Origin: Lewinellaceae bacterium SD302
GTDB taxonomy: Bacteria; Bacteroidota; Bacteroidia; Chitinophagales; Saprospiraceae
NCBI GenBank assembly: GCA_002591745.1
Contig: PDLQ01000008.1
Span: 1-64,000 of the forward strand
Length of the DNA stretch: 64,000 bases
Reading direction: 5' to 3'
In this document: positions 1,425 through 63,646 of the stretch, piece after piece
Numbering within the stretch: the first letter of the stretch is position 1
Layout: every line of letters starts with the position of its first letter
Notes under the pieces: generated by a model
Database searches by the model: none
Told to the model about the DNA's origin: nothing
The model's input: only the letters and a program-made list of their open reading frames with translations
Position numbers and translations under genes: made by a program

Positions 1425-2150
1425 TCATCGGTTACCCGCCAGCCGCTTTACTTCTCCTCCCAGGATGGTACCGATCTGAATCTTGGGGTCCCCGGCATAG
1501 CGTACAATCCCACCGGTATTGGCTTTTGCACTCAACTCTTCCTCTACGGTCGCACTTACTTCTCCTCCCGTGCCGGCCCGTAAACGGCCATTTTGAGCAA
1601 CCAGCCGGTGACCATCCAAAATACCACCGGTATTGGCCCCGGCCCGTAGTTTACCCGCTGTTCCACGCACGGTAAGGTGCGCGCCTTCGGCCGCCTGCAG
1701 GTCCAGCTTGTCCGCATTGATTTCCAGATAAAGCTCACTACCCGATCCGGCACGCGCATAAAATTCTTCCGTGGCTACAGCCTCTCTGAGTTCCACATCT
1801 GCCCCACCAGCGGTAAACAGTGCCTCCAGGTCTCGGTAGTAGACCTTCACCATGATATCCAGGTCCTGGTCGATTACCAATGAGCGAATCGTGCTTATTT
1901 TCAGGGTCTTGTTTTGCTGCTTGATGCTCAGTTTATCAGCGTCATCACCGAAAGCACGTACTACAATCTTTTCCTCTTCACCTTTAATCAGTTCCACATC
2001 GATCAACCCCATGATCTTGACGGTGTTGAAAGGATCTAAATCCGTTGTGTCCTGGGCCAGCAACTGACTAGCCGAAGTATTAATAAATATTAGCATGATG
2101 GCTAACAAAGTAGCAGTGCTGAATTTTGAGATCAAATTTGATGTATTCAT
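1425..2150 (-). CDS. Exported GIN-domain (DUF2807) protein
   Basis: A 241-residue exported protein. ATG at 2148-2150 is chosen because a signal peptide follows directly (MNTSNLISKF, hydrophobic core ATLLAIMLIF, then a cleavage-like SASQLLAQ). The upstream extension of the frame to 2363 is low-complexity and unlike a protein. The mature part begins DPFNTVKIMGLIDVEL, typical of the head GIN domain, followed by repeated Gly-rich beta turns (AGSGSELYLEI, RAGANTGGI, RAGTGGEVSA, AKANTGGIV) of a right-handed beta-solenoid. GIN-domain proteins are common in Bacteroidota, with no established function; an adhesin-like or cell-surface role is a guess. The dispersed AAAGTAGCA word lies inside the signal peptide, encoding STATLLA. 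Confidence 0.8.
   Translation of the reverse strand: MNTSNLISKFSTATLLAIMLIFINTSASQLLAQDTTDLDPFNTVKIMGLIDVELIKGEEEKIVVRAFGDDADKLSIKQQNKTLKISTIRSLVIDQDLDIMVKVYYRDLEALFTAGGADVELREAVATEEFYARAGSGSELYLEINADKLDLQAAEGAHLTVRGTAGKLRAGANTGGILDGHRLVAQNGRLRAGTGGEVSATVEEELSAKANTGGIVRYAGDPKIQIGTILGGEVKRLAGNR
2107..2115 (+). repeat. AAAGTAGCA word, inside GIN-domain gene
   Basis: Exact core with consensus flanks (ggctaac before, gtgct after). It is read on the minus strand as S-T-A-T-L-L-A in the signal peptide. Confidence 0.9.
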
Positions 2151-2326
2151 TTTAAACGGTTGAGTAGGGTTACGCTCATTAGATGCGTAAAATTGTACTT
2201 GGCCCCTACGGAAATGGATAAAAAACCTGGGGCTATCCCGCGTCGAGACATGACTTCGTCTGAACGGTCGAGGATGCGCGACGATTTTGGGGTACGCCGG
2301 GAAAGTATGACCGGTAACTAGAACAC

Positions 2327-2335
2327 TGCTACTTT
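2327..2335 (-). repeat. AAAGTAGCA word, intergenic
   Basis: Exact TGCTACTTT preceded by cac and followed by gaagcc, in the spacer upstream of the GIN-domain gene and downstream of the ABC ATPase gene. Confidence 0.9.
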
Positions 2336-2376
2336 GAAGCCACCCCAAAGCCCCCCCGTTCAAACCGTTTTGGTAT

Positions 2377-3111
2377 TTAAAGGCCCGCCTGCTGCAACAG
2401 GGCCAGCTGCCCCCCGAATGCCGCTGCTAAATTTTCCTTCGTAAACGTTTCTTCCGTCGGCCCCGCCGCTACCAGTCTCTGGTTGAGCAGGACGACGTGA
2501 TCGAAGTAATCCGGCACCGCCTGGAGGTCATGGTGAACCACCAACAACGTCTTACCCGCCGCCGAGAGCTTACGCAACACCTCGATGATCTTTTCTTCGG
2601 TAGGAATGTCCACACCGACGAAGGGCTCGTCCAACAATAAGATTTCCGCTTCCTGGGCCAGGGCACGGGCCAGAAAGGCGCGTTGTTGCTGTCCGCCGCT
2701 CAATTCCCCGATCGGCCGATTCCGCAGATCCTCAATCGCCAACTCCCGCAGCGCCTCGGTAACAATCTTACGATCCTTATCATTCAACCGCTGAAAGACC
2801 CTCTTGTGGGGGTATCGCCCCATACTTACCACGTCTTCTACCGTGGCCGGAAAAGTAAAGTCTATCTCACTACGCTGAGGAACATAGACCACCTGCTTAC
2901 GCACGGCGCTGATGTCCTCTCCCCGGACTGTGACGCTGCCATTATAATCATCAATCAGTCCCAGGATGCTCTTCAGCAGCGTACTCTTACCCGAGCCGTT
3001 GGGGCCGAGGATACCGTAGCGCCGTCCTGCTTCGAACTCCAGAAAAATATTGGAAAGCACGCGTTTGCGATCGTAGGCGACGGAAAGGTCGGAAATTTTG
3101 ATGAGTGCCAT
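2377..3111 (-). CDS. Manganese/zinc/iron ABC transporter ATP-binding protein (ZnuC/MntB/TroB-like)
   Basis: A 244-residue ATPase of the metal-uptake ABC family. Start ATG 3109-3111 gives the normal N-terminus MALIKISDLSVAYDRKRVL; the frame continues upstream through a palindromic spacer that is not protein-like. Walker A GPNGSGKST (about 36-44), Q-loop YVPQRSEIDF, signature LSGGQQQRAFLARAL, Walker B EILLLDEPFVGVD and the switch His in VVHHDL are all present, so it should be active. It is the second gene of a minus-strand pair with the binding protein upstream (3191-4195), separated by about 80 bp of palindromic spacer. The membrane permease normally encoded next to this pair is not in the window. 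Confidence 0.9.
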   Translation of the reverse strand: MALIKISDLSVAYDRKRVLSNIFLEFEAGRRYGILGPNGSGKSTLLKSILGLIDDYNGSVTVRGEDISAVRKQVVYVPQRSEIDFTFPATVEDVVSMGRYPHKRVFQRLNDKDRKIVTEALRELAIEDLRNRPIGELSGGQQQRAFLARALAQEAEILLLDEPFVGVDIPTEEKIIEVLRKLSAAGKTLLVVHHDLQAVPDYFDHVVLLNQRLVAAGPTEETFTKENLAAAFGGQLALLQQAGL

Positions 3112-3143
3112 TTGTAGGTGTTTGGTAAGTGGTATTGGGTATG

Positions 3144-5157: not shown

Positions 5158-5217
5158 AAAGTGTTGGTTTTCGATTTAACGGGTAGATTTTGAAAAGGTT
5201 TGGGTACTCATCAGCAC

Positions 5218-5426
5218 GGCTACTTTGTTATACTCCCCTGGGCCACACCAGGTGATTTTTGACGGCCGCTTTTCCCGCCTGGCTTCACCGCCGAGCTTTG
5301 CCGTAGCTATGGCTATGCCTACATCTCGCCGGTTCGCCAGCCGAAAAAAACCAGCTCGTCAAATTTTCACCTCTTGTGACCGAGGGGAGTATAGCCATAA
5401 TAATTGTTCGGACTAGCAAAGTAGCA
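5218..5426. repeat. About 210-bp imperfect inverted-repeat element ended by AAAGTAGCA words
   Basis: The left end has GCTACTTTGT followed by TATACTCCCCT (one mismatch to the core at its first base). The right end has AGGGGAGTATA at 5383-5393 and, after an extra 22 bp or so, an exact AAAGTAGCA at 5418-5426. Inside are further weak inverted pairs (TGATTTTTGACG against CGTCAAATTTTCA, and GCCTGGC against GCCAGCC). It occupies most of the 480-bp gap between the hydrolase gene and parC, and no coding sequence was seen in it. Confidence 0.6.
5418..5426 (+). repeat. AAAGTAGCA word, right end of the 5218-5426 inverted repeat
   Basis: Exact core with flanks ggactagc and atg. Confidence 0.9.
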
Positions 5427-5584
5427 ATGTTTCGTGTAGTGTGGAGCGGAAAATTGCCACCATCATGCTTTCAAAGCTGGTCGAAACAGTAATTGGGGCA
5501 GTTTTGCAAAAAAATTGGCAGATTTCAATTAGAATATTCCAACCACCTTCAATCAAACATCAATGTTGTTTTGTTTTCAAACAT

Positions 5585-5640: not shown

Positions 5641-8328
5641 ATGAGTAACAACAACGGTCACCAAGCCCCCGAAGATCACGACGACGATCAGGTGTACACC
5701 CTGAAGGGAATGTACGAGGATTATTTCCTCGATTACGCCAGTTACGTGATACTGGAGCGGGCTATCCCGGCCATTTACGATGGTTTCAAACCGGTGCAGC
5801 GCCGTATTCTTCACGCAATGAAGGAAATGGACGATGGTCGTTTTCACAAAGTGGCTAACATCATCGGTCAGACGATGCAGTATCACCCTCACGGTGACGC
5901 CGCTATTGGTGATGCGCTGGTTAACCTGGGGCAGAAAAATCTGCTGATCGACACCCAGGGAAACTGGGGTAATATCTATACCGGCGACAGTGCCGCTGCT
6001 TCTCGTTACATAGAGGCTCGGTTGACCAAATTCGCGCTGGACGTTACTTTCAACCCCGCCACGACCGATTTTCAACTTAGCTACGACGGCCGTAAAAAAG
6101 AACCGGTTAACCTGCCCGCCAAATTCCCCTTACTCCTGGCTCAGGGAGCCGAGGGTATTGCCGTTGGCCTGAGCACCAAGATCATGCCCCATAACTTTGT
6201 GGAACTGATCCGGGCCAGTATTCAGTACCTGAAAGGTCGTCGGGTAAAGATTTACCCCGATTTCCCCACCGGAGGGTTGGTTGACGTATCCGATTACCAA
6301 TCCGGCAAGCGCGGCGGCAAGATCAAGGTCCGCGCCAAGTTGGAAAAGATTGATAACAGCACCGTGGCCGTTCGTGATCTACCCTACGGCGTGACGACCC
6401 AGTCGCTGATCGACAGCATCATCAAGGCCAACGATAAGGGGAAGATCAAGGTGAAGAAGGTGACTGACAATACGGCCGCGGAAGTAGAGATCCTGATCGA
6501 ACTGGGTAAGGACTACAGCGCCGATCTGGCCATCGACGCGCTCTACGCCTTCACCTATTGTGAGATGTCTATTTCTCCGAATGCTTGTATCATTCTGGAC
6601 GACAAGCCCCATTTCGTCACCGTGGAGGACATCCTGGCCAGCTGCACCGAGCAAACCCGTGAGTTGCTGCGGCTGGAGCTAGAGATCGAGAAAAAGAGCC
6701 TGGAAGAAAAGCTTCATTTTGCCAGCCTCGAAAAGATATTCATCCAGGAACGGATCTACCGCGATATTGAGGAAGCCGAAACCTGGGAGCAGGTACTCGA
6801 CATCATCCGCGTCGGTCTGGAGAAATTCGTTTTGGAGCCCAGTGCAACCCCCAAGCGCGGCGACAAGCGCCTGAAGCTACTGCGCGACATCACCGAAGAT
6901 GATATTACCCGCCTGACGGAAATCCGGATCAAAAGAATCTCCAAGTACAACAGTTTCAAAGCCGACGAGCGCATCGCCAAACTGGAAGAAGAACTGGAGG
7001 TAGTGAAGCACCACTTGGCCAACCTGACCGATTACACTATCGATTATTACGAGCGCCTTCTGCAGAAATACGGCAAAGGCCGCGAGCGCAAAACGGAAAT
7101 CACCACTTTCGACAAGGTAGAAGTGGCTGCCGTAGTGGCCAATAACGCTAAACTTTACGTGGACCGCAAAGCCGGTTTCGTGGGTAGTGGACTGAAGAAA
7201 GACGAGTTCGTTACTGACTGCTCAGATATTGACGACATCATTGTAATCCGCAGAGATGGAAAGCTGGTGGTGACCAGAATCTCCGACAAGACCTTCGTAG
7301 GTAAGGACATTCTCCATGTCGACATTTGGCGCAAGGGAGACGAGCGGACAACTTACAATATGATCTATCTGGATGGTAAGACCGGCCGGGCCATGGCCAA
7401 GCGTTTCAACGTAAAGGCCATTACCCGCGATAAGGAGTATGACCTGACCAAAAAGACGAAAGGTTCCAAAGTGCTTTACCTGACCGCTAATCCCAATGGT
7501 GAAGCTGAGTTGATTACCGTTACATTGAGTCCTTCCAGTAAATCGCGGCAAAAAGTTTTCGATTACGGCTTTTCCGACCTGGGTATCAAGGGCCGGGGGG
7601 CCGGCGGAAATATTATGACCCGCTACCCGGTTCGCAAGATTGTACTGAAGGAAGCCGGCGTCAGCACCATCGGTGCGATGAAGATCTGGATGGATGTAGT
7701 CAGTGGCCGCCTGAATACGGACGAGCGAGGCCTTTTCCTTGGCGGTTTCGACACGGGAGATCAGTTGCTGGCCGTTTACCGTGACGGTAGCTACGAGGTG
7801 TCCGATCTAGACCTGGCGAAGAAATTCGACCCCTCCAATCTTCACTACATCGGTAAGTATGACCCGGACTCCGTGATTAGCGCCGTTTATTACGAAGGGG
7901 AGCGGGACCAGACGATGGTTAAGCGCTTCAACATTGAAACCACTTCTACCGGCCAGGCCTTTAGTTACATTTCGGAACACGCTTCCTCCAAGCTCTATTA
8001 CGCCAGCCTGGACGAGAATGCCGAAGTGGAGTACACCATTCGCCGCAAACGGGAAAAGCTCAGTTTTACCATCAAGCTAAGCGATTTCATAGCGGTGAAG
8101 GGTTGGAAATCCCTTGGTAATAAACTGGAGGACGGGAAGCTTTCCGCGATAAAAGGCATTCACGAAAATGCCGTTGAGATCGAAAGCCCCAAAGTCCCCA
8201 TCGAAAAAGTCAGCACCGATGTAAATAGAAACACTGCTACTTTAAAGTCAAAACCCAACGGTGAAGCGGATAAAAATAACAGTGGTGGACTCAAACCTGG
8301 AGACAGTATTGAGTTTGACTTTGGGTAA
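5641..8328 (+). CDS. parC: DNA topoisomerase IV subunit A (ParC; gyrase A family)
   Basis: An 895-residue type IIA topoisomerase subunit that breaks and rejoins DNA to decatenate chromosomes. The N-terminal breakage-reunion domain carries the active-site Tyr123 in AAASRYIEARLTK, the QTMQYHPHGD motif and the PNFPTGG-like stretch PDFPTGGLV. A coiled-coil tower lies around residues 340-470, and a C-terminal beta-propeller-type region follows with a basic or charged tail. The short acidic leader MSNNNGHQAPEDHDDD and the overall length fit the Bacteroidota ParC form rather than GyrA. The parE partner is not in the window. A strong promoter precedes it. Near the C-terminus the dispersed DNA word encodes N-T-A-T-L-K-S in a poorly conserved tail. 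Confidence 0.92.
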   Translation: MSNNNGHQAPEDHDDDQVYTLKGMYEDYFLDYASYVILERAIPAIYDGFKPVQRRILHAMKEMDDGRFHKVANIIGQTMQYHPHGDAAIGDALVNLGQKNLLIDTQGNWGNIYTGDSAAASRYIEARLTKFALDVTFNPATTDFQLSYDGRKKEPVNLPAKFPLLLAQGAEGIAVGLSTKIMPHNFVELIRASIQYLKGRRVKIYPDFPTGGLVDVSDYQSGKRGGKIKVRAKLEKIDNSTVAVRDLPYGVTTQSLIDSIIKANDKGKIKVKKVTDNTAAEVEILIELGKDYSADLAIDALYAFTYCEMSISPNACIILDDKPHFVTVEDILASCTEQTRELLRLELEIEKKSLEEKLHFASLEKIFIQERIYRDIEEAETWEQVLDIIRVGLEKFVLEPSATPKRGDKRLKLLRDITEDDITRLTEIRIKRISKYNSFKADERIAKLEEELEVVKHHLANLTDYTIDYYERLLQKYGKGRERKTEITTFDKVEVAAVVANNAKLYVDRKAGFVGSGLKKDEFVTDCSDIDDIIVIRRDGKLVVTRISDKTFVGKDILHVDIWRKGDERTTYNMIYLDGKTGRAMAKRFNVKAITRDKEYDLTKKTKGSKVLYLTANPNGEAELITVTLSPSSKSRQKVFDYGFSDLGIKGRGAGGNIMTRYPVRKIVLKEAGVSTIGAMKIWMDVVSGRLNTDERGLFLGGFDTGDQLLAVYRDGSYEVSDLDLAKKFDPSNLHYIGKYDPDSVISAVYYEGERDQTMVKRFNIETTSTGQAFSYISEHASSKLYYASLDENAEVEYTIRRKREKLSFTIKLSDFIAVKGWKSLGNKLEDGKLSAIKGIHENAVEIESPKVPIEKVSTDVNRNTATLKSKPNGEADKNNSGGLKPGDSIEFDFG
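8235..8243 (-). repeat. AAAGTAGCA word inside parC
   Basis: Exact TGCTACTTT with flanks aacac and aaagtc, read in frame as T-A-T-L-K-S in the variable C-terminal tail of ParC. Confidence 0.9.
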
Positions 8329-16602: not shown

Positions 16603-16711
16603 GGTTTAAGCTTGGTTAAGGCTATTTGTAGTCGGTTAAGGCATGGCAATAGTAAGGCTTATTTTGGCTTCAATTTCGTGGAGTAACTTAATATTTGTTT
16701 TTTTTGACTAA

Positions 16712-16732
16712 CAAAGTAGCACTGCTACTTTG
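16712..16732. repeat. Perfect palindrome made of two AAAGTAGCA words
   Basis: CAAAGTAGCA (16712-16721) and TGCTACTTTG (16723-16732) are exact inverse copies around a single C. The left flank is TTTGACTAA and the right flank is AAGCCATAAC, the usual flanks of the dispersed word. It lies between divergently transcribed genes, where a terminator would not be expected. Confidence 0.95.
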
Positions 16733-16762
16733 AAGCCATAACCTTTTAGACTTTCACTCCAA

Positions 16763-21914: not shown

Positions 21915-21954
21915 CAAAGAACGTCTTCGGCTTGAGAGGGTGAATTGGACTTCA

Positions 21955-21963
21955 AAGTAGCCA
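21955..21963 (+). repeat. Near copy of the AAAGTAGCA word (last base differs)
   Basis: AAAGTAGCC preceded by the consensus flank ggacttc, in the spacer between the convergent MFS and flippase genes. Confidence 0.6.
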
Positions 21964-21991
21964 TATTGATAAGAACCCGATTTTGACCTCA

Positions 21992-25436: not shown

Positions 25437-25484
25437 GGAATTGAAACGTCACGGAGCATTTAATGTGCATGCGGCCATCGGCAT

Positions 25485-25493
25485 TGCTACTTT
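25485..25493 (-). repeat. AAAGTAGCA word, intergenic
   Basis: Exact TGCTACTTT with flanks gcat and gaagtcaaaac, in the spacer between the DUF3108 and DUF4230 genes. Confidence 0.9.
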
Positions 25494-25599
25494 GAAGTCA
25501 AAACAATATGAATGGCTAATGTAGAATGTGAGATTTTTGATGTTGCTCAATACGCGTACTCGCCGAAGTGGCACGTCAAATATTCTACACCTCACATCA

Positions 25600-26469: not shown

Positions 26470-27435
26470 TTACGCCTTTTTGACGATGAGCCAGTAAGCA
26501 GGTAACGCCGGTAACAAAACATTAACCAGGAACAGCGTCGTGAAAGCAGCCAGACTGGCGGCCACGGTTTCTGGAGTATTACCCCAGAGGAGCACGCCGA
26601 GTTCGGCTCTGGTCAATAAGTTGATGCCCGGCGGCAGGGGAATGCCCGCCTGTACGAGATAAATAGCTGCTATTCCGGCCAGGCCACGCACCAGGGGCAG
26701 ACCTATTCCAAAAACGCCTAAAAGCAAATACAATTGTACCAGATAGGTCACAAATCGCAGGGCGGCGATGAGGGTACTGGCTAGCAAAGTAGCAAAGCTA
26801 ACGTTAGCCAGGGCTGTGAGCAGCTCGGCGACTGACCACCCGAAGCGCTCCGCCAACCAGCTAATGATCTTCGACAAAATGCTAGTCCCCCCCAGCAGAA
26901 CGGCGATCACCAGCAATAAGGCCGGCAAAATTCCAATCCAGCGCCAGGGACGGTAGATTTCTGGCAGGAAAGGTCCGCTTACCCAGATCAGTGCCGGCAA
27001 GGCCACCAATAAAAAGACCAACCATTGGCAAATACTACCCAGCAAAGAACTGGCCAGGACTTTACTGTATTCGCCTTTGCCTGCTTGCAGGAGTCGCCCA
27101 CCAATCTCACCGATCCGGTTGGGCGTCACGGCACTGACGCTCACCCCGGCCAGGACCGCCTTCAGGCAGCGGCGGAAAGACCAGTCTAAAAAGGGCCGCA
27201 GGAGCAGTTGCCACTTTCGGGTTTCCAACAGCCAGTTCACGGGCATGAGTAATAGTACCAGCGAAATCCGCCAGCCATTTTCCGGTTTTACCACGCTTTG
27301 CCAGAAAGCAGCGGTATCCAACTCGCTACTAATGGTATATAGCTGATAACTTACCAAGGCGAGAACAGCAATGGCAAGTAAGTAACGAAGGCGTTTTTTG
27401 AGCTTAGAACTTAGCAATAGGCAATTACAGAACAC
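26470..27435 (-). CDS. Lysylphosphatidylglycerol synthase TM region/UPF0104 family membrane protein
   Basis: A 321-residue protein with about 8 helices, and signature pieces PVNWLLETRKWQLLL, GVSVSAVTPNRIGEIGGR and GIPLPPGINLLTRAELG. Homologs with a soluble synthase domain aminoacylate lipids; this one is the membrane part only and probably acts as a flippase or transporter. There is no in-frame ATG near the N-terminus: the start is GTG at 27435 or TTG at 27417. The AAAGTAGCA word lies inside a membrane segment, encoding F-A-T-L-L-A. The DUF3108 gene follows closely. Confidence 0.8.
   Translation of the reverse strand: MFCNCLLLSSKLKKRLRYLLAIAVLALVSYQLYTISSELDTAAFWQSVVKPENGWRISLVLLLMPVNWLLETRKWQLLLRPFLDWSFRRCLKAVLAGVSVSAVTPNRIGEIGGRLLQAGKGEYSKVLASSLLGSICQWLVFLLVALPALIWVSGPFLPEIYRPWRWIGILPALLLVIAVLLGGTSILSKIISWLAERFGWSVAELLTALANVSFATLLASTLIAALRFVTYLVQLYLLLGVFGIGLPLVRGLAGIAAIYLVQAGIPLPPGINLLTRAELGVLLWGNTPETVAASLAAFTTLFLVNVLLPALPAYWLIVKKA
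26786..26794 (+). repeat. AAAGTAGCA word inside the UPF0104 gene
   Basis: Exact core with flanks ggctagc and aagct, read on the minus strand as F-A-T-L-L-A within a helix. Confidence 0.9.
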
Positions 27436-28464: not shown

Positions 28465-29043
28465 ATCTTCCCGATAGTCAACGTCTCTGGTATGGGGTCC
28501 GGAAGGGATAGTTCTCAATGTGGGGAATTCCGCAATCGTCTCCCTCAGTTTTTTATTAGGACTGGCAAAGTAGCAATGTTCGATAAAAGCTCGGGACAGG
28601 AGCGCTGGAACACCGGGGCCCTCCGGATAAATCGTTGCGACAGCTTGCTCCGATTGTCCTGCCAGCTCTGCTACTTTGTTAGCCATCCTTTTTATCCATT
28701 CTTCGGTGAACCAGGGCATGTCACAGGGAAGAATGAGTACTTGTTTACAATCGGAAAAGTTCATCAATTGACGCAGCCCGAAATCTAGCGAACTGGCCAT
28801 CCCGTCCGCCCATTTTTCGTGGTAGTAGACCGATGCTCCGATTAGCCTTGCTTCCTCAGCAACCTTTGAGTGGTTATCCCCGCTTACAACGCAGACCTGA
28901 TCACAACCTCCCGCCCGGCAATTGCTCACAACGTGGGCAAGTAAGGTCTTGCCATCCAGTTCGGCCAACTGTTTTTCCCCGCCGAAACGGGTGGCGGCCC
29001 CCGCTGCGGGTATCAGGGCGATGATGGAATTCGAGGGAAGCAA
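28456..29043 (-). CDS. NTP transferase family protein (MobA/MocA-like nucleotidyltransferase)
   Basis: A 195-residue GT-A-fold nucleotidyltransferase: IPAAGAATRFGGEKQLAELDGKTLL (here in part: PAAGAATRFGGEKQ) is the nucleotide-binding loop, and ILPCDMPWFTEE holds the metal-binding Asp. GPGVPALLSRAFI and DVDYREDL are the usual later motifs of the molybdopterin cytidylyl/guanylyltransferase group. No molybdoenzyme genes are nearby, so molybdenum cofactor modification is only the family inference. Two oppositely oriented copies of the AAAGTAGCA word lie inside the gene. Confidence 0.82.
   Translation of the reverse strand: MLPSNSIIALIPAAGAATRFGGEKQLAELDGKTLLAHVVSNCRAGGCDQVCVVSGDNHSKVAEEARLIGASVYYHEKWADGMASSLDFGLRQLMNFSDCKQVLILPCDMPWFTEEWIKRMANKVAELAGQSEQAVATIYPEGPGVPALLSRAFIEHCYFASPNKKLRETIAEFPTLRTIPSGPHTRDVDYREDLS
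28567..28575 (+). repeat. AAAGTAGCA word inside the nucleotidyltransferase gene (copy 1)
   Basis: Exact core with flanks ggactggc and atg, read on the minus strand as H-C-Y-F-A. Confidence 0.9.
28669..28677 (-). repeat. AAAGTAGCA word inside the nucleotidyltransferase gene (copy 2, inverted)
   Basis: Exact TGCTACTTT with flanks ctc and gttagcc, read on the minus strand as M-A-N-K-V-A-E. It forms an inverted pair with copy 1, 93 bp apart. Confidence 0.9.
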
Positions 29044-34377: not shown

Positions 34378-34483
34378 GCAGTCAAAATGATGGGTTGAGC
34401 GCCGCAAGCGCTCGGAGTTACTAGTCCAAAACCACCTTGGCAATCAAAAATTATTTTCAAAAATTACTTCAAAAAAAATTCCA

Positions 34484-35553: not shown

Positions 35554-37272
35554 TTACTCGTGTTGCACCGCCGGACGTTCCCAGTCGTCTTCGGCGGTGC
35601 TTACTTTTTGGTAGTGGTCCAAGGCGCTTTGAATGCTCAGAAACTGATTATTACTACCAATGCGATCCATAATTCCGAAGCGGTAAAGTTGATCGCGGAC
35701 CGGGCCGATGGCGCCGGCCAGGTAAAGCTCCCCACCCCGTTTTTCCAGAAAATCGATGACGCCGTTCAGGGCGAAGGCCCCGCTGGTATCCAGATTATGG
35801 ATGGTGTGGGCATCGATGATCAGCAGGGCTAAGTCGTCTCCCTTGGCCCGGATAAGTTGGGTGAGTCGTTCTCGGAAAAAATCAGCGTTGCCGAAGAAAA
35901 GCTCCGCATCAAACCGAATGATGAGCACGTCCGCTTCGACTTCGGCCTGTGGAAAGCGGTCTATATTTCTGAAAGCATTGGAATCCGGTAAGCGGCCCAG
36001 TTCCGCCAGGTGGGGTTTGGTGGATTTCAGCAACATAAAGGTCAGCGAAAGTAGTACCCCGGCGATGATCCCGAATTGTAGTCCTCCGAATAAGGTAACG
36101 AGGAAGGTAACTAGCAAAGTAGCAAAGTCCTTCTTTTCCAGCTTCCAGAGTCGACGCATCTCGGCGTAGTCAAAAAGTTTGCGAACCGAAAGTATGATAA
36201 TGGCCGCTAAAACCGTGAGGGGCAGGAAGTAAAAGAATTCCATCAGGAATAATGCACAGAGCGCCAGGAGGAGGACGGTAGTCAGGCTACTCACCACGGT
36301 GTGGGTACCGGATTGCTCGCTGACGGCCGAGCGGCTAAAACTGGCCGAGGTAGGGATGGCCTGAAACAGGCTACCCAATAGTTTGCTGCTGCCCAGGGCA
36401 ATCAACTCCCGGTTGGGCTGGGCTCGGTAGTATTCATACCGCTCCTGAAAGGTCTTGCCAATCGACAGTGTCTCAATAAAACTGACCAGGCCGAGCACCA
36501 ACGCAGAAGGCAGCAACAGTAATAATTCCTTTCCCGAGAATTCGGGTAGGCCGAAGGCCGGCAAGCCGTTAGGTACTTCGCCCAGTACTTCCAGCCCCTG
36601 TTCGGGCAGTTTAAACAACCAGCTTAACAGCGTAGCACCAGTGATAAAGAGTAGTAAAATCGGCCAACCCTTCAACCATTTTTTAAGGATTGGAATGGTA
36701 AACAGGGTCACCAGACCGAAAAGTGCGGTCAGCCAATCGGGCCGCCAAACAGCCTTAAACAGGCGGAGTAAACTTTCGTGGAAATATTCACTCTTGACCA
36801 CCGTAAGCCCCAGCAGCGCCTTGATTTGCGAAGTCAGGATCAACACCGCCGCGGCAGAAATAAATCCACTGATCACCGGCCGGCTTAAAAAGTTGATGAT
36901 GGACCCCAGTCGTAATACGCCCAGGCTCAATTGCACCAGCCCGGTGAGCCCGGCCAACAGAAAACAATAATTCAGGTAAGCCGGGTCATTCGTTGCAACG
37001 ACACCGCTCAGAGCTGCCGCCGTCAGAATACTGGCCAGGGCCGTGGGACCAACGCTTACGTGGGGCGTGGAACTCAGCAAGCCGTAGATCAGTAAAGGAA
37101 CGATACTAGCGTAAATACCGTAAACCGCCGGCACACCGGCCAGGATGGCGTAGGCCATTGCCTGAGGGACCAGCAAGATAGCTACGGTAATCCCGGCCAT
37201 AATGTCGCTGCGACAGCTACGGATGTTGTAATCCGGAGGGAGGGGGAACCAGGATGTGAGTTTAGATTTCAA
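35554..37272 (-). CDS. SulP family anion transporter with STAS domain
   Basis: A 572-residue protein with about 12-14 helices and a cytoplasmic C-terminal STAS domain (about residues 450-555, including LALLIIDAHTIHNLDTSGAF in part). The opening YNIRSCRSDIMAGITVAIL and VPQAMAYAILAGVP are family signatures. Members move sulfate, bicarbonate or other anions; in marine bacteria many are Na-bicarbonate transporters (BicA), so the substrate is open. The persulfide-dioxygenase-like gene upstream on the same strand points to sulfur, weakly. An AAAGTAGCA word is inside a membrane helix, encoding F-A-T-L-L-V. Confidence 0.88.
   Translation of the reverse strand: MKSKLTSWFPLPPDYNIRSCRSDIMAGITVAILLVPQAMAYAILAGVPAVYGIYASIVPLLIYGLLSSTPHVSVGPTALASILTAAALSGVVATNDPAYLNYCFLLAGLTGLVQLSLGVLRLGSIINFLSRPVISGFISAAAVLILTSQIKALLGLTVVKSEYFHESLLRLFKAVWRPDWLTALFGLVTLFTIPILKKWLKGWPILLLFITGATLLSWLFKLPEQGLEVLGEVPNGLPAFGLPEFSGKELLLLLPSALVLGLVSFIETLSIGKTFQERYEYYRAQPNRELIALGSSKLLGSLFQAIPTSASFSRSAVSEQSGTHTVVSSLTTVLLLALCALFLMEFFYFLPLTVLAAIIILSVRKLFDYAEMRRLWKLEKKDFATLLVTFLVTLFGGLQFGIIAGVLLSLTFMLLKSTKPHLAELGRLPDSNAFRNIDRFPQAEVEADVLIIRFDAELFFGNADFFRERLTQLIRAKGDDLALLIIDAHTIHNLDTSGAFALNGVIDFLEKRGGELYLAGAIGPVRDQLYRFGIMDRIGSNNQFLSIQSALDHYQKVSTAEDDWERPAVQHE
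36116..36124 (+). repeat. AAAGTAGCA word inside the SulP gene
   Basis: Exact core with flanks aactagc and aagtc, read on the minus strand as D-F-A-T-L-L-V in a membrane helix. Confidence 0.9.
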
Positions 37273-37497: not shown

Positions 37498-37578
37498 GTT
37501 CTGAATCCTGTTTGAGCAAAGCGAATTTATTCAGAACTAGATTTTTTTGCTACTTTTTTCATCAATGGAAAAAAGTAG
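37498..37578. repeat. Two hairpins in the spacer between the SulP and MBL-rhodanese genes
   Basis: GTTCTGAAT (37498-37506) pairs with ATTCAGAAC (37529-37537). CTACTTTTTTC (37550-37560) pairs perfectly with GAAAAAAGTAG (37568-37578) around a 7-nt loop. The second includes an exact TGCTACTTT (37548-37556) but lacks the flanks of the dispersed word. The rest of the 325-bp spacer from 37273 has no gene. Confidence 0.65.
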
Positions 37579-38989: not shown

Positions 38990-39187
38990 AACCACAAATA
39001 TATGATGAGTCACTCATGTTTCAGGAAGTAGACAATCTGGCTTGTGCAGGGGTTGAACGAGCCTCGTCAAATTAAACCGAAAATGACGTTTAGGGGCGGC
39101 ACTTCAATCAGCTCTCTTAGAGAATCTACCTTCCTCAAGGTATCAATTTTGAAAGACAGTACGTTCACTGATCGGGTTTTGACTAAC

Positions 39188-39196
39188 AAAGTAGCA
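39188..39196 (+). repeat. AAAGTAGCA word, intergenic
   Basis: Exact core with flanks tttgactaac and aggtc, between the divergent MBL-rhodanese and methyltransferase genes. Confidence 0.9.
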
Positions 39197-39248
39197 AGGT
39201 CAATGGTTAAGTAGAAAATCAGCTACGATACTAGCACAACCACTTAAC

Positions 39249-39824: not shown

Positions 39825-39943
39825 TGCGGTATCAGTGATCGCCTGATGGTGATGACAGAGCCTACTCTGCTGATCTATAGCAAACCTACTATCGACCAAA
39901 CCGCTCCTCTCGTAGAAAAAAGCCCTGACTTCACCACTGGCAC

Positions 39944-39968
39944 CGCTACTTTAGCTTTGCTGATCGTC
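39944..39968 (-). repeat. Composite repeat: variant core word joined to GCTGATCGTC
   Basis: CGCTACTTT (one mismatch to TGCTACTTT) followed by AGCTTT and GCTGATCGTC (39959-39968). The same arrangement is found at 51570 and 60112. Confidence 0.7.
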
Positions 39969-40000
39969 GCAAGGGAGACTCTTTCCAGAATGAACGACCT

Positions 40001-40009
40001 TGCTACTTT
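40001..40009 (-). repeat. AAAGTAGCA word, intergenic
   Basis: Exact TGCTACTTT with flanks acct and gttagcc, in the same orientation as the copy at 39944. Confidence 0.9.
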
Positions 40010-40028
40010 GTTAGCCTAAATATCCATA

Positions 40029-44644: not shown

Positions 44645-44681
44645 GCGTCCATTGGCCTGAACTTTCGCCTTATTGATCACC

Positions 44682-44821
44682 TTGCTACTTTGAAGGCAAA
44701 AAGGATTGATGGTTATTGGGCTGATAAGTTATTCGTTGCAGTTTTAGCCTACACCTCGTTTTGGTAACTTAACAACTGAAAAACTCAGCAACCAATATCT
44801 CTTATGACTTCAAAGTAGCAA
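44682..44821. repeat. 140-bp element bounded by inverted AAAGTAGCA words
   Basis: TTGCTACTTTGAAG (44682-44695) and CTTCAAAGTAGCAA (44808-44821) are perfect 14-bp inverted copies. Each contains an exact core (44683-44691 reverse, 44812-44820 forward). The interior holds CTCAGCAACCAATA (44784-44797), shared with 35522-35535. It lies between the membrane protein gene and gnd. Confidence 0.85.
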
Positions 44822-44888
44822 TGCCATTAAAAACCCCGGGCTCAGGGCTATCGGGCCATCTCAATAACCTCCTCTACATTTATCAACT

Positions 44889-46824: not shown

Positions 46825-48795
46825 ATGACTACCAACCTGCCCAAGCCCCCTAAGCGCGACCTTCGCTATCAATTTCGTGACCTGGAAAAGATCCCGGTTA
46901 AAGTCTGGGAAGAAAGTGCAGAGGCCTCCGCTTACGTCGCCCAGTCGATCGCGCTGGCCATTAAGCAAAAACGACAGGAGAACGAAAATATCATCCTCGG
47001 ACTGGCCACCGGTTCATCACCGATTCAGGTGTACAATGAGCTGGTAAGAATGCACCGGGAGGAAGGCCTGAGTTTCCAGAATGTGATCACCTTCAACCTC
47101 GACGAGTATTACCCCATGGAACCGACCGCCGTGCAGAGCTACGTCCGTTTCATGAACGAGTATCTTTTCGACAAAGTAGATATCCGGCCGGAAAACATCC
47201 ATATCCCCGACGGTACTCTGCCGCTGGAGGAAGTTGAGGATTATTGCCGGGAATACGATAAAAAAATCGAGGATTACGGCGGTATCGACATCCAGATCCT
47301 GGGTATCGGCCGCACGGGACATATCGGCTTCAATGAACCCGGAAGCTGGTTGGAAAGTCCAACCCGCCTGGTCCGCCTGGATGCGCTCACCCGCCTGGAT
47401 GCCACCAAGGATTTCGCTAACGAAGAGGACGTGCCTTACCGAGCCATTACGATGGGTATCAAGCCGATCATGCAAGCTAAGGTCATCTATCTCCTGGCCT
47501 GGGGGCAACACAAAGCACCCATTCTGGCCCGCGCCCTGGAAGGAGAAATTAGTGATCAGGTACCTGCTACCTTTCTGCAGGAACACCCCCGTACGCGGGC
47601 GATCGTAGACCGTGCCGCCGTAGAGGAACTGACCAGGTTCCGAGTCCCCTGGAAAGTAGGTCTCTGTAACTGGGACGATGATTTGAGCTACCGGGCCGTA
47701 CTCTGGTTAAGCCAGCAAACCGGTGTGCCAATTCTCAAACTGACCAACGAGCATTACTCCGAAAATGGTCTTCAGGAGCTTATTCTGGAAAAACAGAATA
47801 GCTACGACCTGAACATCGAGGTATTCAACCGGCTACAACGTACCATTACCGGGTGGCCGGGCGGCAAGGCCAATGCCGACGACGAGCACCGCCCCGAAAG
47901 AGCCCTGCCGGCCAAAAAACGAGTGATTATTTTCAGCCCCCACCCGGATGATGATGTAATCAGTATGGGTGCTACTTTTCATCGATTGGTCGAGCAGGGG
48001 CACGAGGTCCACGTTGCCTACCAGACCTCCGGCAACATTGCCGTGCACGACCACGATGCGCTCCGCTTCGTGGAGTTTCTGGACGAATTTTCCGCCAGTA
48101 AGGGTCAGTTTTCCGACCCACTCATTGCGGAGGTAGCCAAGAAAACAAAGAAGATTCGCAAGTTCCTGGAAAAGAAAAATAAGGAGAAAAACGACCTGAT
48201 CGACATTCCTGAACTCAGACTGGTCAAAGGGATGATTCGCCGGGGAGAAGCCCGTGCCGGTGCCCGTGCAGTTGGGCTAACGGACGAAAAACGGTTTCAT
48301 TTCCTCGACCTGCCCTTTTACGAGAGTGGCCGCAGCCGTAAGAAGCCCCTGGGGCCGGCCGACGTGAAGATCGTACGCGAACTGATTGAAAAGGTAAAGC
48401 CTCACCAGATTTTCGCCGCTGGTGACTTGGCGGACCCCCACGGTACTCACCGTATCTGCCTGAACGCCATTTTACTGGCCCGCCAGGAACTGAAAGACCA
48501 GCAGTGGATGAAGAAGGACTGCTACCTCTGGCTCTACCGTGGCGCCTGGATGGAATGGCCGATCCACGAAATTGAAATGGCGGTTCCCTTCAGCCCGGAT
48601 CAGCTTAGGACCAAGCGACGGGCCATCTTCATGCACCAGAGCCAGAAGGATCGTCCGCCATTCCCCGGACAGGACGAGAGAGAATTCTGGGTGCGGGCCG
48701 AAGAGAGAAACCGGGAAACGGCGGATATTTATCGGGGCCTGGGCCTGGCGGAGTACGAGGCGATGGAAGCGTTTCGGCGAATGCGGGATTTATAG
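46825..48795 (+). CDS. nagB: Glucosamine-6-phosphate deaminase fused to a LmbE/PIG-L deacetylase domain
   Basis: 656 residues from ATG 46825, chosen because the ATG at 46801 lies in repeat sequence. The N-terminal deaminase (about residues 25-285) has LGLATGSSPIQVYNELV, Asp93 in FNLDEYYP, and LGIGRTGHIGFNEPGS with His166 and Glu171. The E. coli catalytic-triad Asp141 (NDGH) is Thr164 here (RTGH). The C-terminal LmbE-like domain (from about 370) has FSPHPDDDVISMG and DPHGTHR, the Zn-binding deacetylase motifs. The product should link amino-sugar deacetylation and deamination to fructose 6-phosphate. This fusion is common in Bacteroidota. Confidence 0.9.
   Translation: MTTNLPKPPKRDLRYQFRDLEKIPVKVWEESAEASAYVAQSIALAIKQKRQENENIILGLATGSSPIQVYNELVRMHREEGLSFQNVITFNLDEYYPMEPTAVQSYVRFMNEYLFDKVDIRPENIHIPDGTLPLEEVEDYCREYDKKIEDYGGIDIQILGIGRTGHIGFNEPGSWLESPTRLVRLDALTRLDATKDFANEEDVPYRAITMGIKPIMQAKVIYLLAWGQHKAPILARALEGEISDQVPATFLQEHPRTRAIVDRAAVEELTRFRVPWKVGLCNWDDDLSYRAVLWLSQQTGVPILKLTNEHYSENGLQELILEKQNSYDLNIEVFNRLQRTITGWPGGKANADDEHRPERALPAKKRVIIFSPHPDDDVISMGATFHRLVEQGHEVHVAYQTSGNIAVHDHDALRFVEFLDEFSASKGQFSDPLIAEVAKKTKKIRKFLEKKNKEKNDLIDIPELRLVKGMIRRGEARAGARAVGLTDEKRFHFLDLPFYESGRSRKKPLGPADVKIVRELIEKVKPHQIFAAGDLADPHGTHRICLNAILLARQELKDQQWMKKDCYLWLYRGAWMEWPIHEIEMAVPFSPDQLRTKRRAIFMHQSQKDRPPFPGQDEREFWVRAEERNRETADIYRGLGLAEYEAMEAFRRMRDL
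47970..47978 (-). repeat. Exact TGCTACTTT inside nagB without the flanking consensus
   Basis: Encodes G-A-T-F directly after the PHPDDD motif, where family conservation explains the residues. Probably chance. Confidence 0.4.
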
Positions 48796-49517: not shown

Positions 49518-50798
49518 ATGGCAATCGTAGAATTAAAAGTTCCCGTGATCGGCGAATCGGTCACTGAAGTAACCCTGAGTCAATGGCTAAAAGAAAACGG
49601 GGATATGATCGCGCTGGACGAGCCGATCTGTGAATTTGAATCCGACAAGGCTACTCTGGAGTTCCCCTCCGAAGCCGCCGGAAAACTGATCTACGTCGCT
49701 GAAGAAGGAGACGATCTGGAAATCGGTGCCCTCGTTGCCAAGATCGACACGGAGGCCGCCGGCGAGGCCGCGCCAGCCGAGTCTGCCGCCGCCAAAGAAG
49801 AAAAGCCGGACAATAACGCAAAGACCGAAGCAGGTACGGAAGGTGAAGTAAACGCAACCGAAGGCTACAACGCCAGCAAGGAAAACTACGCCACCGGCAC
49901 CCCCTCACCGGCCGCCGCCAAAATCCTGCGGGAAAAAGGTGTCGATGCCGCTAACGTGAACGGGACCGGCCGTGACGGGCGCATCACCAAAGCCGATGCA
50001 CAGGATGCCAAAGCTGCTCCCGCGCCGAGCAAGAAAGCTGAGTCTCCCACCGCTGACACTGCTACGTTGAAGTCCGCCCCGGCAGCCTTCTCCCGTGAAC
50101 AACGGACGGAGAAAATGAGCCGGATGCGCCGCACCATCGCCAGCCGACTGGTAAAAGCCAAGAACGAAACGGCCATGCTCACCACTTTTAACGAGGTGGA
50201 CCTGAGTGCCGTCATGGCCTTGCGTAAAAAAGTGCAGGAGCGCTTCGTGGAGAAAAATGGTGTTAAGCTCGGTTTTATGTCTCTCTTCGCCAAGGCTTGC
50301 GCCAAAGTGCTAATGGACATGCCCAACGTGAACGCCCAACTCGGAGAGAATGGCAAGGAATTGATCTACCACGATTATGTAGACATCAGTTTCGCCATCT
50401 CTACCCCCACCGGACTGGTGGTGCCACCCGTAAAAAATGTGGAATCCATCAGCTTTGCCGACGTGGAAATCAAGCTTAAAGAACTGGCCAAGAAGGCCCG
50501 TAACAATGAGCTGACCATCGAAGAAATGCAGGGCGGCACCTTCACCATCACCAATGGTGGCGTATTCGGCAGCATGATGAGCACGCCGATCATCAATGAG
50601 CCACAGAGTGCCATTCTCGGAATGCACAACATTATCCAGCGGCCGGTTGCCGTTAACGGTGAAGTGGTGATCCGCCCCATGATGTACATCGCCCTGAGTT
50701 ACGATCACCGCGTCATTGACGGTAGTTCCTCCGTTACCTTCCTGGTAAAAGTGAAAGAATTGCTGGAAGATCCCGAGTTCTTACTACTGAGCCTGTAA
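49518..50798 (+). CDS. odhB: Dihydrolipoamide succinyltransferase, E2 of 2-oxoglutarate dehydrogenase
   Basis: 426 residues. One lipoyl domain with Lys44 in [10 protein letters not shown], a long Ala/Glu/Asn linker, a peripheral subunit-binding domain ([20 protein letters not shown], part), a second Ala/Pro linker, and the catalytic CoA-acyltransferase core with [27 protein letters not shown] and His397-Asp401 in [11 protein letters not shown]. The final SYDHRx[11 protein letters not shown] pattern indicates the succinyl form. The E1 gene (odhA/sucA) is not adjacent. In the second linker the near-core word TGCTACGTT encodes T-A-T-L-K-S (50060-50068). Confidence 0.93.
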
Positions 50799-50866: not shown

Positions 50867-51493
50867 TTATTCCAAGCCCCGTATCGCCACCACTTTCCGT
50901 CGCGTTACGTACTCCCCCGTTTTAGGTGAATAAAGGTCAACGTTCACGTACTCGACCTCAACGGGTGTTGGCGGGCGTTGGCCATCGGCCAGCATTTCCG
51001 AACCGGAAAAATATTCCAGCCAGTGTAACTTAACGGGTTTACCGTCCAATTGTCGCAGCGAAATGATGGCTATCTCTTCACCTGTCACTCCCGTGATCTG
51101 GCCCGAAAGGAAGTAGTGCTTTTCCCTGGTTTCTTCTTTGCTAGACTCCACTTTCTGCTGGCCAAGTTCCATCATCGCATCGGGGCAAAAGTTCATCATT
51201 TTGATGCCTATTTTTTCGCCCAGCCGGGTCATCATCTCTACGTTGTTGTAATCCAACGGCCCGAATAGTGCTTCGTACTCTTCGCGGCGTTCCTCCACGT
51301 AACCTATCATACAGGTGCCCAGCGCGGCTTCAGCAGAGAGTTCAGGCGATTTCTTTTCCTGGAAGCACTGGCAAGTAGCATCGGCAATCTCCCCGAGCAG
51401 TTTTTCTCCATCAGGTTCAGTCTGTGCCGTCAGGGAGGTAATCATCAGGACTAACAAAGTAGCAGTGCTGGTAAAGCGAATCAAAATATTCAT
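50867..51493 (-). CDS. Exported protein of unknown function
   Basis: 208 residues from ATG 51491-51493: signal peptide MNILIRFTSTATLLVLMITSLTAQ. The mature part has five Cys or near-Cys positions (TCQCF, GTCMIGY, NFCPDA), suggesting disulfides, and a C-terminal half of beta strands including ISLRQLDGKPVKLHWLEYF and YSPKTGEYVTRR. No family is recognised. It is transcribed convergent to odhB. The AAAGTAGCA word lies in the signal peptide, encoding S-T-A-T-L-L-V, the same place and frame as in the GIN-domain protein. Confidence 0.7.
   Translation of the reverse strand: MNILIRFTSTATLLVLMITSLTAQTEPDGEKLLGEIADATCQCFQEKKSPELSAEAALGTCMIGYVEERREEYEALFGPLDYNNVEMMTRLGEKIGIKMMNFCPDAMMELGQQKVESSKEETREKHYFLSGQITGVTGEEIAIISLRQLDGKPVKLHWLEYFSGSEMLADGQRPPTPVEVEYVNVDLYSPKTGEYVTRRKVVAIRGLE
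51456..51464 (+). repeat. AAAGTAGCA word inside the exported protein gene
   Basis: Exact core with flanks ggactaac and gtgct, read on the minus strand as S-T-A-T-L-L-V in the signal peptide. Confidence 0.9.
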
Positions 51494-51534: not shown

Positions 51535-51612
51535 AAAGCAGCAGTGCACTATTGGTCATCAAGTTGCACTGCTACTTTAGCTTCGCTGATCGTCCCTTCG
51601 GTCCTCGGAGTT
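51535..51612 (-). repeat. Composite repeat element with core word, GCTGATCGTC and CTCGGAGTT
   Basis: A near core AAAGCAGCA at 51535 is followed by exact TGCTACTTT at 51570-51578, then AGCTTC, GCTGATCGTC (51585-51594), CCTTCGGTC and CTCGGAGTT (51604-51612), then GAAGTCTAAC, which matches the flank of the core word. Confidence 0.75.
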
Positions 51613-58371: not shown

Positions 58372-58487
58372 AAGAGTAGTGATTTGGGCCAACAAGATAC
58401 ATCGAAGTGATAAATTCCAACTTCCTTTCTCAACTACCAACACTTAACTGGTGATCTGCCGTGTGCTAGAATATTATTCTGACTAAC

Positions 58488-58496
58488 AAAGTAGCA
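58488..58496 (+). repeat. AAAGTAGCA word, intergenic
   Basis: Exact core with flanks tctgactaac and gtgct, between the divergent SprB-like gene and the next gene (271-bp gap, no other features seen). Confidence 0.9.
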
Positions 58497-58642
58497 GTGC
58501 TTTTTTATACACGATCTGTGATACTTTGCGGTAATCAAGAGATTGACCAGACTTTGGTAGTTGTTAAAATAATTTGGGGGTTGTTTCTTTTCTGCTGTTC
58601 GTGCATCCATAATGTGAAAGTAGACCAAAACATCCCCCAATC

Positions 58643-60103: not shown

Positions 60104-60111
60104 CCCGGCAC

Positions 60112-60200
60112 TGCTACTTTAGCTGGCGCTGATCGTCGTTCCTCCTCGGAGTTACCTTCGGTGATCGTCCCTTCGGTCCTCAGAGTTGCTAGCCACAAAA
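60112..60200 (-). repeat. Composite repeat element with tandem second unit
   Basis: TGCTACTTT (60112-60120), GCTGATCGTC (60128-60137) and CTCGGAGTT (60145-60153), then a second GTGATCGTCCCTTCGGTCCTC unit (20 of 21 bases: tGATCGTCCCTTCGGTCCTC) and CAGAGTTGCTAGCC. Same modules as 51570. It lies between the convergent unknown gene and the protease-barrel gene. Confidence 0.75.
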
Positions 60201-63067: not shown

Positions 63068-63125
63068 GTGGTCAAGATACAAGCCCTGCCACAAATGCTA
63101 CATGCTACATAATTTTATTCGATGT

Positions 63126-63506
63126 CTAGGCATTACACGCTCGGCAATAGCCCGATACTACCCCATTGAAATTAGTGGTACGGTAACCAGTGGGTAAATT
63201 GACGGACACTTCCTGGTCCAGACATTCGACTTTATCGCAGTTCAGGCAGCGGAAGTGGAAATGATCGTGGCGATGGTCGTTAGCTTCACATTCGGAACAG
63301 ATGGCAAAATACTGCTTACCGTCATCTGCCACGATCCGGTGAACCAGTCCGTCGTCGCAAAAGCGATTGAGGATACGATAGATGGTGGTACGGTCAGCCT
63401 TGGCAGTGATCTTTTCCTGGATCATCTCATGGCTCAGGGCGGATTCAGCCTCCTGTAATGAGGCCAGAACGGCGGTTTGGGTGGCGGTATTTCGACGTTT
63501 CTTCAA
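63126..63506 (-). CDS. Fur family metalloregulator (Zur/PerR-like)
   Basis: 126 residues, the typical Fur size. The N-terminal winged helix includes ALSHEMIQEK and the recognition helix KADRTTIYRILNRFCDDGLV. The metal-rich segment has HRHDHFHFRCLNCDKVECLD (two Cys of the structural zinc), and the C-terminus SGYCRACNA provides two more Cys. Both metal-sensor His clusters appear intact. A Zur function is suggested by a Zur-like operator upstream of the divergent lipoprotein gene. No other Fur gene is nearby. Confidence 0.85.
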   Translation of the reverse strand: MKKRRNTATQTAVLASLQEAESALSHEMIQEKITAKADRTTIYRILNRFCDDGLVHRIVADDGKQYFAICSECEANDHRHDHFHFRCLNCDKVECLDQEVSVNLPTGYRTTNFNGVVSGYCRACNA

Positions 63507-63562
63507 GCTGCTACAGGTTAGTTCTTTCGGTAGCCTTCAACAATCGGTCATCCGATTAGCAC

Positions 63563-63571
63563 TGCTACTTT
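63563..63571 (-). repeat. AAAGTAGCA word, intergenic
   Basis: Exact TGCTACTTT with flanks gcac and gatagtcc, upstream of the Fur-family gene. Confidence 0.9.
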
Positions 63572-63646
63572 GATAGTCCAAAAAATAAAAACTCCGGGCT
63601 TACCCGAGTTCCATTCCAGGTAATAATTAAAAAATAAATCAACATT

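Follow-up and report, generated by a model that had tools for sequence, protein, structure and literature searches.

Which machine reads the short DNA word that is scattered over the first 64,000 nucleotides of contig PDLQ01000008.1 of Lewinellaceae bacterium SD302? This whole stretch, called the window hereafter, had been given a sequence-only reading in which 23 exact copies of the 9-mer AAAGTAGCA were counted by eye, in and between genes and in both orientations, and were likened to DNA uptake sequences (DUS). All 23 were recovered at their positions, and 100 dinucleotide shuffles of the window gave a mean of 0.40 copies and never more than 2, so that a chance origin of the count can be rejected. 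The word is not clustered locally either: the whole genome (G000; 5,478,864 bases in 147 contigs) holds 717 + 731 = 1,448 copies on the two strands, as against 45 + 42 = 87 of the reversed-word control, a count far above expectation that spreads beyond the window and bears out the claim of both orientations. The corresponding figures for CAAAGTAGCA are 669 + 675 versus 7 + 9. In 464 kb of the genome, no 9- or 10-mers are commoner than the word and its overlaps, which also rank first in their ratio to a second-order Markov model, the kind of background that had been proposed for such a check.

The full motif extends over about 25 bp (TTTTGRCTWNC-AAAGTAGCA-RTGYT), with a left flank that is T-rich and one-sided. 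A weight matrix of it found 268 sites in 664 kb of G000 versus 11 in simulated sequence of equal length. Its 31 sites in the window comprise 21 of the 23 exact copies, the five near copies noticed by eye (5219, 21955, 39944, 50060 and 51535, all of which exist), and five weak sites with scores of 9.3-13.8 (24660, 44101, 49649, 49794 and 55925). The extended flanks are thus real for most copies for which they had been claimed, the copies at 51570 and 60112 carrying a different left flank; those at 37548 and 47970 lack flanks, as the second list in the sequence-only reading had implied.

Related Lineages Carry Other Words

The closest named relatives of a gyrase/topoisomerase A-like protein encoded in the window are those of Lewinella sp. 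JB7 (71%) and of Neolewinella species, and the host is therefore a Saprospiraceae bacterium. In a 16-row tree of this protein, the host lies outside the JB7 and Neolewinella rows, whose grouping has support of 100/99; judged by this one-gene tree, it would be the deepest of the sampled Lewinella/Neolewinella rows. Its placement is unsure in a midpoint-rooted gnd tree (19 rows, including 18 of the 20 congeners).

Among the genomes searched, the host's word is confined to its own species. CAAAGTAGCA is at background in all 20 congeners (at most 12 copies) and shows no comparable enrichment in 397 other genomes of the family and 394 others of the phylum, two overlapping sets in which the highest count noticed was 63 in a 10.2 Mb genome (control 25); the 9-mer AAAGTAGCA itself occurs 6-196 times in 79 relatives. 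When words were counted de novo in four congeners, with 100 kb taken from each, another one emerged, clearest in G013 and G019. This word, GCACCYGCGNNNNCGCC, is present in 195-1,425 copies in 18 of the 20 congeners (reversed control at most 11) and in 6 copies in G000. It is low in the two remaining congeners, G001 (5 copies) and G007 (35; control 2), which carry the variants ACCTGCGCTCCGCCGCC and CACCCGCGCCCCGGCGCCC and group together in the gnd tree. Named genomes can be counted as well, namely Lewinella sp. JB7 (94 + 101), N. persica DSM 23188 (720 + 705), N. aurantiaca (633 + 652), N. antarctica (400 + 382), and the metagenome-assembled genome Co_bin.246 (411 + 414); since these counts equal those of G004, G005, G014, G018, and G019, they evidently come from the same congeners and are not extra evidence. 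Elsewhere, GCACCYGCGNNNNCGCC is at 0-1 copies in four further genomes (L026, L033, L049 and L080), and among 140 family genomes it is in excess in the congeners G002 and G017 only, the others having at most 6. The outgroup G822 showed no clear dispersed word in 53 kb.

A weight matrix built for G013 found 307 sites in 900 kb versus 12 in simulated sequence, again with a one-sided left flank, here pyrimidine-rich. The host's word has no visible relation to GCACCYGCGNNNNCGCC, and taken together the words resemble DNA uptake sequences that differ as dialects between species. By eye only, the right halves of the two words possibly align (GCARYGCY).

Copies on the Same Strand Exclude Each Other

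Neighbouring copies alternate in orientation much more often than they should (151 alternating versus 57 same), mainly owing to an exclusion that acts between copies on the same strand. We considered as strong the sites with a matrix score of at least 20, that is, 212 of 268 in G000 and 241 of 307 in G013. At distances of 150-2,000 bp, G000 has 6 same-strand pairs of strong sites where 62.2 are expected (Poisson P 9e-20) and 57 opposite-strand pairs, as by chance; G013, with its different word, has 4 same-strand pairs where 59.3 are expected (P 1e-20) and 65 opposite-strand ones. Below 150 bp, opposite-strand pairs are in excess (21 versus 5.1 expected in G000, 9 versus 4.8 in G013) and same-strand pairs of strong sites are sparse (2 versus 5.1 and 0 versus 4.8). 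The expected rate of same-strand pairs is regained at roughly 3-5 kb. When weak sites are included, the effect is diluted, with 32 same-strand and 92 opposite-strand pairs in G000 and 32 and 102 in G013, as expected if redundant copies decay. Control 8-mers behave otherwise: for 20 of them in G000 and 60 in G013, same-strand pairs make up 60% and 57%, the lowest same-strand share is 36%, and none of the 80 comes down to 26%. Three of five smaller samples agree (4 same-strand and 14 opposite-strand pairs in G001, 4 and 16 in G007, 0 and 4 in G017).

A check of strand bias and spacing had been suggested, and its two halves came out differently. The large blocks show no bias, with 69 of 144, 33 of 62, and 27 of 55 sites on the + strand in G000 and 76 of 151 and 66 of 130 in G013; five 20-kb blocks in this count hold 5-8 sites each. 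Spacing within one strand, for its part, is strongly non-random, and same-strand gaps are regular, with coefficients of variation of 0.46 in G000 and 0.54 in G013. The +- order is denser than the -+ order at 1-2 kb in G000 (31 versus 14), not in G013 (22 versus 27).

Three redundancy rules were compared in a toy simulation, with one run each, and only redundancy within a strand reproduced the pattern. Orientation-blind redundancy was rejected because it depletes all pair classes, and one-sided import because it also depletes one opposite-strand class, both unlike the data. Loss of direct repeats by deletion is an unlikely cause as well, as the full G000 set is undepleted below 150 bp and most strongly depleted at 0.5-1.5 kb; the scarcity of strong same-strand pairs below 150 bp is a counterpoint to this rejection. 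The sites thus appear to have a single reading direction, with each strand read independently of the other. This is a statistical rule on a genome scale, found in two genomes with unrelated words, and it constrains the mechanism without any experiment; the same test of strand pairs can be applied wherever a genome carries uptake words or Chi sites.

Copies within Genes and at Homologous Places

Gene positions were taken from a simple open reading frame (ORF) caller made for this analysis. Among 212 word matches in 664 kb of G000, 211 could be classified, 92 as genic and 119 as intergenic, the latter in about 13% of the DNA; the word is therefore present in and between genes, as had been claimed, at a density about 9-fold higher between them. 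Genic copies have no preferred orientation (47 along the gene, 45 against it), and 71 of the 92 are in one frame, where they mostly encode xKVA or xATL peptides.

In alignments with G013 homologues, 6 of 11 genic matrix sites were free of gaps over the word and four residues on each side, one of the six being weak (SucB, 49649, score 9.3); the other five are at or near gaps, often in linkers. The FATL peptide encoded at 36116, in a membrane protein, is common to G000 and G013. When compared with solved structures, RecQ and PheT carry the word without a gap, PheT having a one-residue gap four residues before it. As several genic copies align in this way to homologues or structures, the word is often not an insertion, though some copies could have arrived by recombination or as small insertions. 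Conserved sequence ends about 30 bp from the core, which, together with the 92 genic copies, disposes of the idea that all copies belong to one recent transposon family.

Conservation at orthologous positions, another proposed check, gave a divided answer. We kept 44 of 78 reciprocal pairs (coverage of at least 0.7, identity of at least 35%). Regardless of orientation, 14 sites were matched versus 6.2 at random (P 0.001), which is above chance, while in the same orientation 7 of 45 were matched versus 3.0 at random (P ~0.03), so that orientation is weakly conserved. Single congener sites upstream of gnd stand at places like the host's, a likeness that this broader test did not bear out.

What Reads the Word?

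Strand-specific exclusion means that the reader has to sense direction. It calls for something that travels along DNA with a polarity, be it an end-threading import machine or a Chi-recognising nuclease. On balance, we lean towards a genome-wide self-recognition sequence that works like uptake sequences and is read directionally, and we infer uptake, directional reading, and drive by recombination as its three components. A DNA-import machine would prefer fragments carrying the word, and recombination of imported fragments would spread copies over the genome and keep them there. If the machine reads the word in one polarity while threading DNA, same-strand copies would replace each other over about 2 kb and copies on the other strand would count separately. 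Lineages of the genus would use their own dialects, the host species a radically different one. In Neisseria, mean spacing matches the length of conversion fragments (PMC2397512; this and the other PMC papers are cited from the available parts of their texts), and redundancy that reaches over about 2 kb would be in keeping with conversion tracts of such length.

The nuclease deserves to be weighed first among the alternatives, as a possible, if rather unlikely, answer. Chi words differ between species, are dispersed over the genome, and are recognised on one strand by an enzyme moving along the DNA. In a Chi-like signal, a helicase-nuclease of the AddAB or RecBCD type entering at a break would read the word on one strand and switch to repair; same-strand copies within its reach would be redundant and opposite-strand copies invisible, and strand-independent sites with same-strand exclusion are thus predicted, as seen. 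The motif is, however, longer than expected, with about 11 positions above 1 bit in G000 and about 15 in G013, plus flanks, whereas known Chi sites have 5-8 nt. E. coli Chi is also biased towards the origin, or one replication strand, unlike the unbiased word of the large blocks. Motif length, the lack of strand bias, the intergenic preference, and the dialect pattern together make us favour import over Chi.

Regular same-strand gaps and the concentration of sites between genes would also suit a chromosome-organising or segregation protein, or a global regulator, whose sites need even spacing on each strand. We regard this as improbable: there is no strand bias along large blocks, 44% of the sites are genic without a preferred orientation, and a reader bound to the duplex would leave strand independence unexplained. 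Strand-specific nick or export sites, at which a relaxase-like enzyme would start or end the donation of single-stranded DNA, do predict the strand rule, because a second same-strand copy would cut the transferred strand short; with no other observation pointing to them, in an analysis that included no search for a relaxase or export system, they are very improbable. A mobile short repeat (of the REP or MITE kind) or a transposon footprint can be all but set aside, for although longer elements carrying the word exist (the compound repeat described below) and some genic copies are at alignment gaps, no conserved sequence extends beyond about 30 bp from the core, gap-free copies sit in the membrane protein at 36116, in RecQ, and in PheT among the 92 genic ones, and congeners carry an unrelated word with an equal strand rule (G013).

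Candidate Uptake Machinery

If the word does serve uptake, the host should be asked for its genes. ComEC, a competence gene of the sort that had been recommended for a search, is present (PF03772, 189.6 bits, contig C59). For the T2SSE family, which covers the PilB, PilT, and GspE ATPases, there are two partial and marginal matches, one at 24.9 bits, exactly the cut-off, and one at 22.5.

Another lead comes from Riemerella anatipestifer, which also belongs to the Bacteroidota and whose transformation needs ComEC, DprA, ComF, and RecA together with four proteins without known counterparts. These four include a DUF5689 protein whose gene adjoins that of an outer-membrane protein with a carboxypeptidase-regulatory-like domain, and both members of this pair are essential (PMC8459023). 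TonB mutations lower transformation in this organism, and for one of the two genes iron uptake is also lost (PMC8383284). A similar TonB-receptor/DUF5689 pair exists here. One open frame of G000 encodes three DUF5689 domains in a predicted lipoprotein, which scores 119.5 bits against the M949_1556 lipoprotein model of the National Center for Biotechnology Information (NCBI; cut-off 475). The gene directly upstream codes for a protein of 933 aa whose matches to carboxypeptidase-regulatory-like and plug domains stay below the Pfam cut-offs, and a copy of the word lies where the two genes meet, within the opening codons of the longest frame (L237:8538). DUF5689 was found in none of the 20 congeners (E 0.001), no receptor of this kind was found at E 1e-3 in about 4 Mb of sequence searched, and a search for a solved structure of a DUF5689 protein gave no match.

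Homologous pairs on Aureibacter and Bacteroides replicons adjoin endonuclease/exonuclease/phosphatase genes; in Flammeovirga a DUF6359 protein takes the neighbouring place, with genes of this kind beside it as well. Because related pairs keep this company, the pair may serve DNA scavenging. The Bacteroides and Persicobacter replicons showed no clear dispersed word. We regard the TonB-dependent outer-membrane protein and its DUF5689 lipoprotein as a speculative candidate receptor, and their coincidence with the word as a lead, not a proof. Going further, Bacteroidota might have evolved a DNA self-recognition system of their own without type IV pili, in which a TonB-powered outer-membrane channel and a DUF5689-type surface lipoprotein thread DNA and read a species-specific word in one polarity. 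Each strand of the genome would then carry its own tiling, with an exclusion zone of 2 kb, and in one lineage a new receptor would have come together with a wholly new word; we consider this unlikely, though worth spelling out.

Several observations weigh against an uptake-like word read in one direction. A Chi-like signal would account for the strand rule as well, and the rule is not seen in G016 (5 same-strand and 3 opposite-strand pairs) and G019 (11 and 14), with 100 kb each. Neisseria and Haemophilus use type IV pili, whereas G000 has no convincing T2SSE-type pilus ATPase, in a search confined to this one family of pilus parts. DUF5689 and the word coincide in one lineage only, and Aureibacter and Flammeovirga replicons with the TonB-receptor locus show no clear word (37-42 kb). 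Only 6 of the 11 genic sites compared with G013, including the weak one, are ungapped; the word in a peptide-transporter ATPase falls at a gap relative to a solved structure; and site orientation is weakly conserved at orthologous places.

Comparison with Known Systems

Neisseriaceae DUS have a core of about 10 bp in very high copy, in both orientations, in genic and intergenic DNA, with dialects that follow phylogeny (PMC3630211). The word shares these traits of high copy, orientation, placement, and dialects. It differs in belonging to another phylum, in the marginal type IV pilus ATPase matches, in the larger sequence jump between dialects, and in the 2-kb strand-specific exclusion, which is not described in the available parts of PMC2397512 and PMC3630211. 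For DUS and for the uptake signal sequences (USS) of Haemophilus, we ourselves would expect orientation-blind spacing if they are bound as duplex in either orientation; the spacing seen here is of another kind.

Haemophilus USS combine a 9-bp core with an AT-rich flank, which lies on the opposite side of the core from the flank seen here. The copy numbers are close, with 1,471 USS in H. influenzae (PMC1939737) and 1,448 copies here, and both have no orientation bias along the chromosome and some inverted pairs. Haemophilus uptake is reported to be independent of USS orientation (PMC1939737), whereas the two strands behave here as two independent channels. The likeness to uptake sequences proposed in the sequence-only reading therefore holds for number, density, orientations, spread in and between genes, length, T-rich flank, and dialects, and breaks down at the PilB/PilT/GspE matches and the strand-specific spacing. 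Although it would work like one, we would not file the word as a DUS because uptake is putative, no pilus ATPase is convincing, and spacing is not orientation-blind.

Within the Bacteroidota, Riemerella columbina shows self-preference; uptake words were sought in Riemerella, and the available part of the resulting table lists A/T-rich words of unknown function (PMC7965970). The Saprospiraceae pair is a candidate by comparison. That no such word had been described for this group agrees with the literature searched: there is no report from Bacteroidota among the matches listed, with subscription journals mostly outside the search. Strand-specific exclusion is not reported in the available parts of PMC1939737, PMC2397512, PMC7811141, and PMC3630211. 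As far as this literature goes, the recorded cases of dense uptake words with dialects are those of the Neisseriaceae and Pasteurellaceae. A genus of Bacteroidota with dialects of its own would add an independent one, among bacteria whose natural transformation is poorly understood, and the named species whose genomes are available (N. persica, N. aurantiaca and N. antarctica) would allow the prediction to be put to a bench test.

Features of the Window and Other Repeats

Table 1. Copies of the word in the window, with the receptor-like locus elsewhere in G000. Scores are weight-matrix scores; exact, exact match to the 9-mer.
Feature	Position	Strand	Match
Word, full flanks, core 2107-2115	2097..2120	+	exact; score 34.5
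Word, core 2327-2335	2322..2345	-	exact; score 24.3
Near copy, core 5218-5226	5213..5236	-	score 22.1
Word, core 5418-5426, divergent intergenic	5408..5431	+	exact; score 32.7
Word, core 8235-8243, 3' part of gyrase/topoisomerase A-like gene	8230..8253	-	exact; score 27.4
Word, core 16713-16721, overlapping inverted pair with 16718..16741	16703..16726	+	exact; score 35.0
Word, core 16723-16731, overlapping inverted pair with 16703..16726	16718..16741	-	exact; score 25.1
Near copy, core 21954-21962	21944..21967	+	score 26.2
Word, core 25485-25493	25480..25503	-	exact; score 35.0
Word, core 26786-26794, within gene	26776..26799	+	exact; score 30.7
Word, core 28567-28575	28557..28580	+	exact; score 34.8
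Word, core 28669-28677	28664..28687	-	exact; score 30.3
Word, core 34369-34377	34364..34387	-	exact; score 30.0
Word, core 36116-36124, within gene, encodes FATL peptide	36106..36129	+	exact; score 22.5
Bare 9-mer without flanks, within other dispersed repeat	37548..37556	-	exact
Word, core 39188-39196	39178..39201	+	exact; score 35.2
Near copy, core 39944-39952, in ACGATCAGC compound repeat	39939..39962	-	score 11.4
Word, core 40001-40009	39996..40019	-	exact; score 33.6
Word, core 44683-44691, upstream of gnd	44678..44701	-	exact; score 28.8
Word, core 44812-44820, upstream of gnd	44802..44825	+	exact; score 27.8
Bare 9-mer without flanks, within gene	47970..47978	-	exact
Near copy, core 50060-50068, in sucB-like gene	50055..50078	-	score 17.8
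Word, core 51456-51464	51446..51469	+	exact; score 32.5
Weak near copy	51535..51543	+	score 9.4
Word, core 51570-51578, in ACGATCAGC compound repeat	51565..51588	-	exact; score 12.9
Word, core 58488-58496, divergent intergenic	58478..58501	+	exact; score 37.1
Word, core 60112-60120, in ACGATCAGC compound repeat	60107..60130	-	exact; score 10.1
Word, core 63563-63571	63558..63581	-	exact; score 37.3
TonB-receptor-like gene and triple-DUF5689 lipoprotein gene	L237:5673-10601 (G000 contig C115)		

A structured-RNA family was rejected as the source of the copies, the window having no Rfam match, and a comparison with PHROGs led nowhere. The copies at 39944, 51570, and 60112 share a different left flank (...ACGATCAGCG..AGCT) and are part of a longer compound repeat of about 50 bp, in which CCGAAGGTAACTCCGAGGAGGAACGACGATCAGCG..AGCT is followed by the word; it occupies 39944-39990, 51570-51600, and 60112-60145 on the - strand of the window and occurs in about 9 copies in 664 kb, mostly intergenic and some with a decayed word. 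The flankless copy at 37548 belongs to a dispersed repeat of about 150 bp (37445-37595), full or partial copies of which, at 83-87% identity, are found on three other contigs of G000.

Other repeated words were met among the relatives. Stretches L152-L156 of the congener G016 contain GAGCGAAGCGAG/CCTCGCTTCGCTCGGG, in six copies per 100 kb and few bins, and four Pontibacter loci (L063, L075, L079 and L084) each hold 5-7 copies of GCTATACCTG per 22 kb, which may be another dispersed word.

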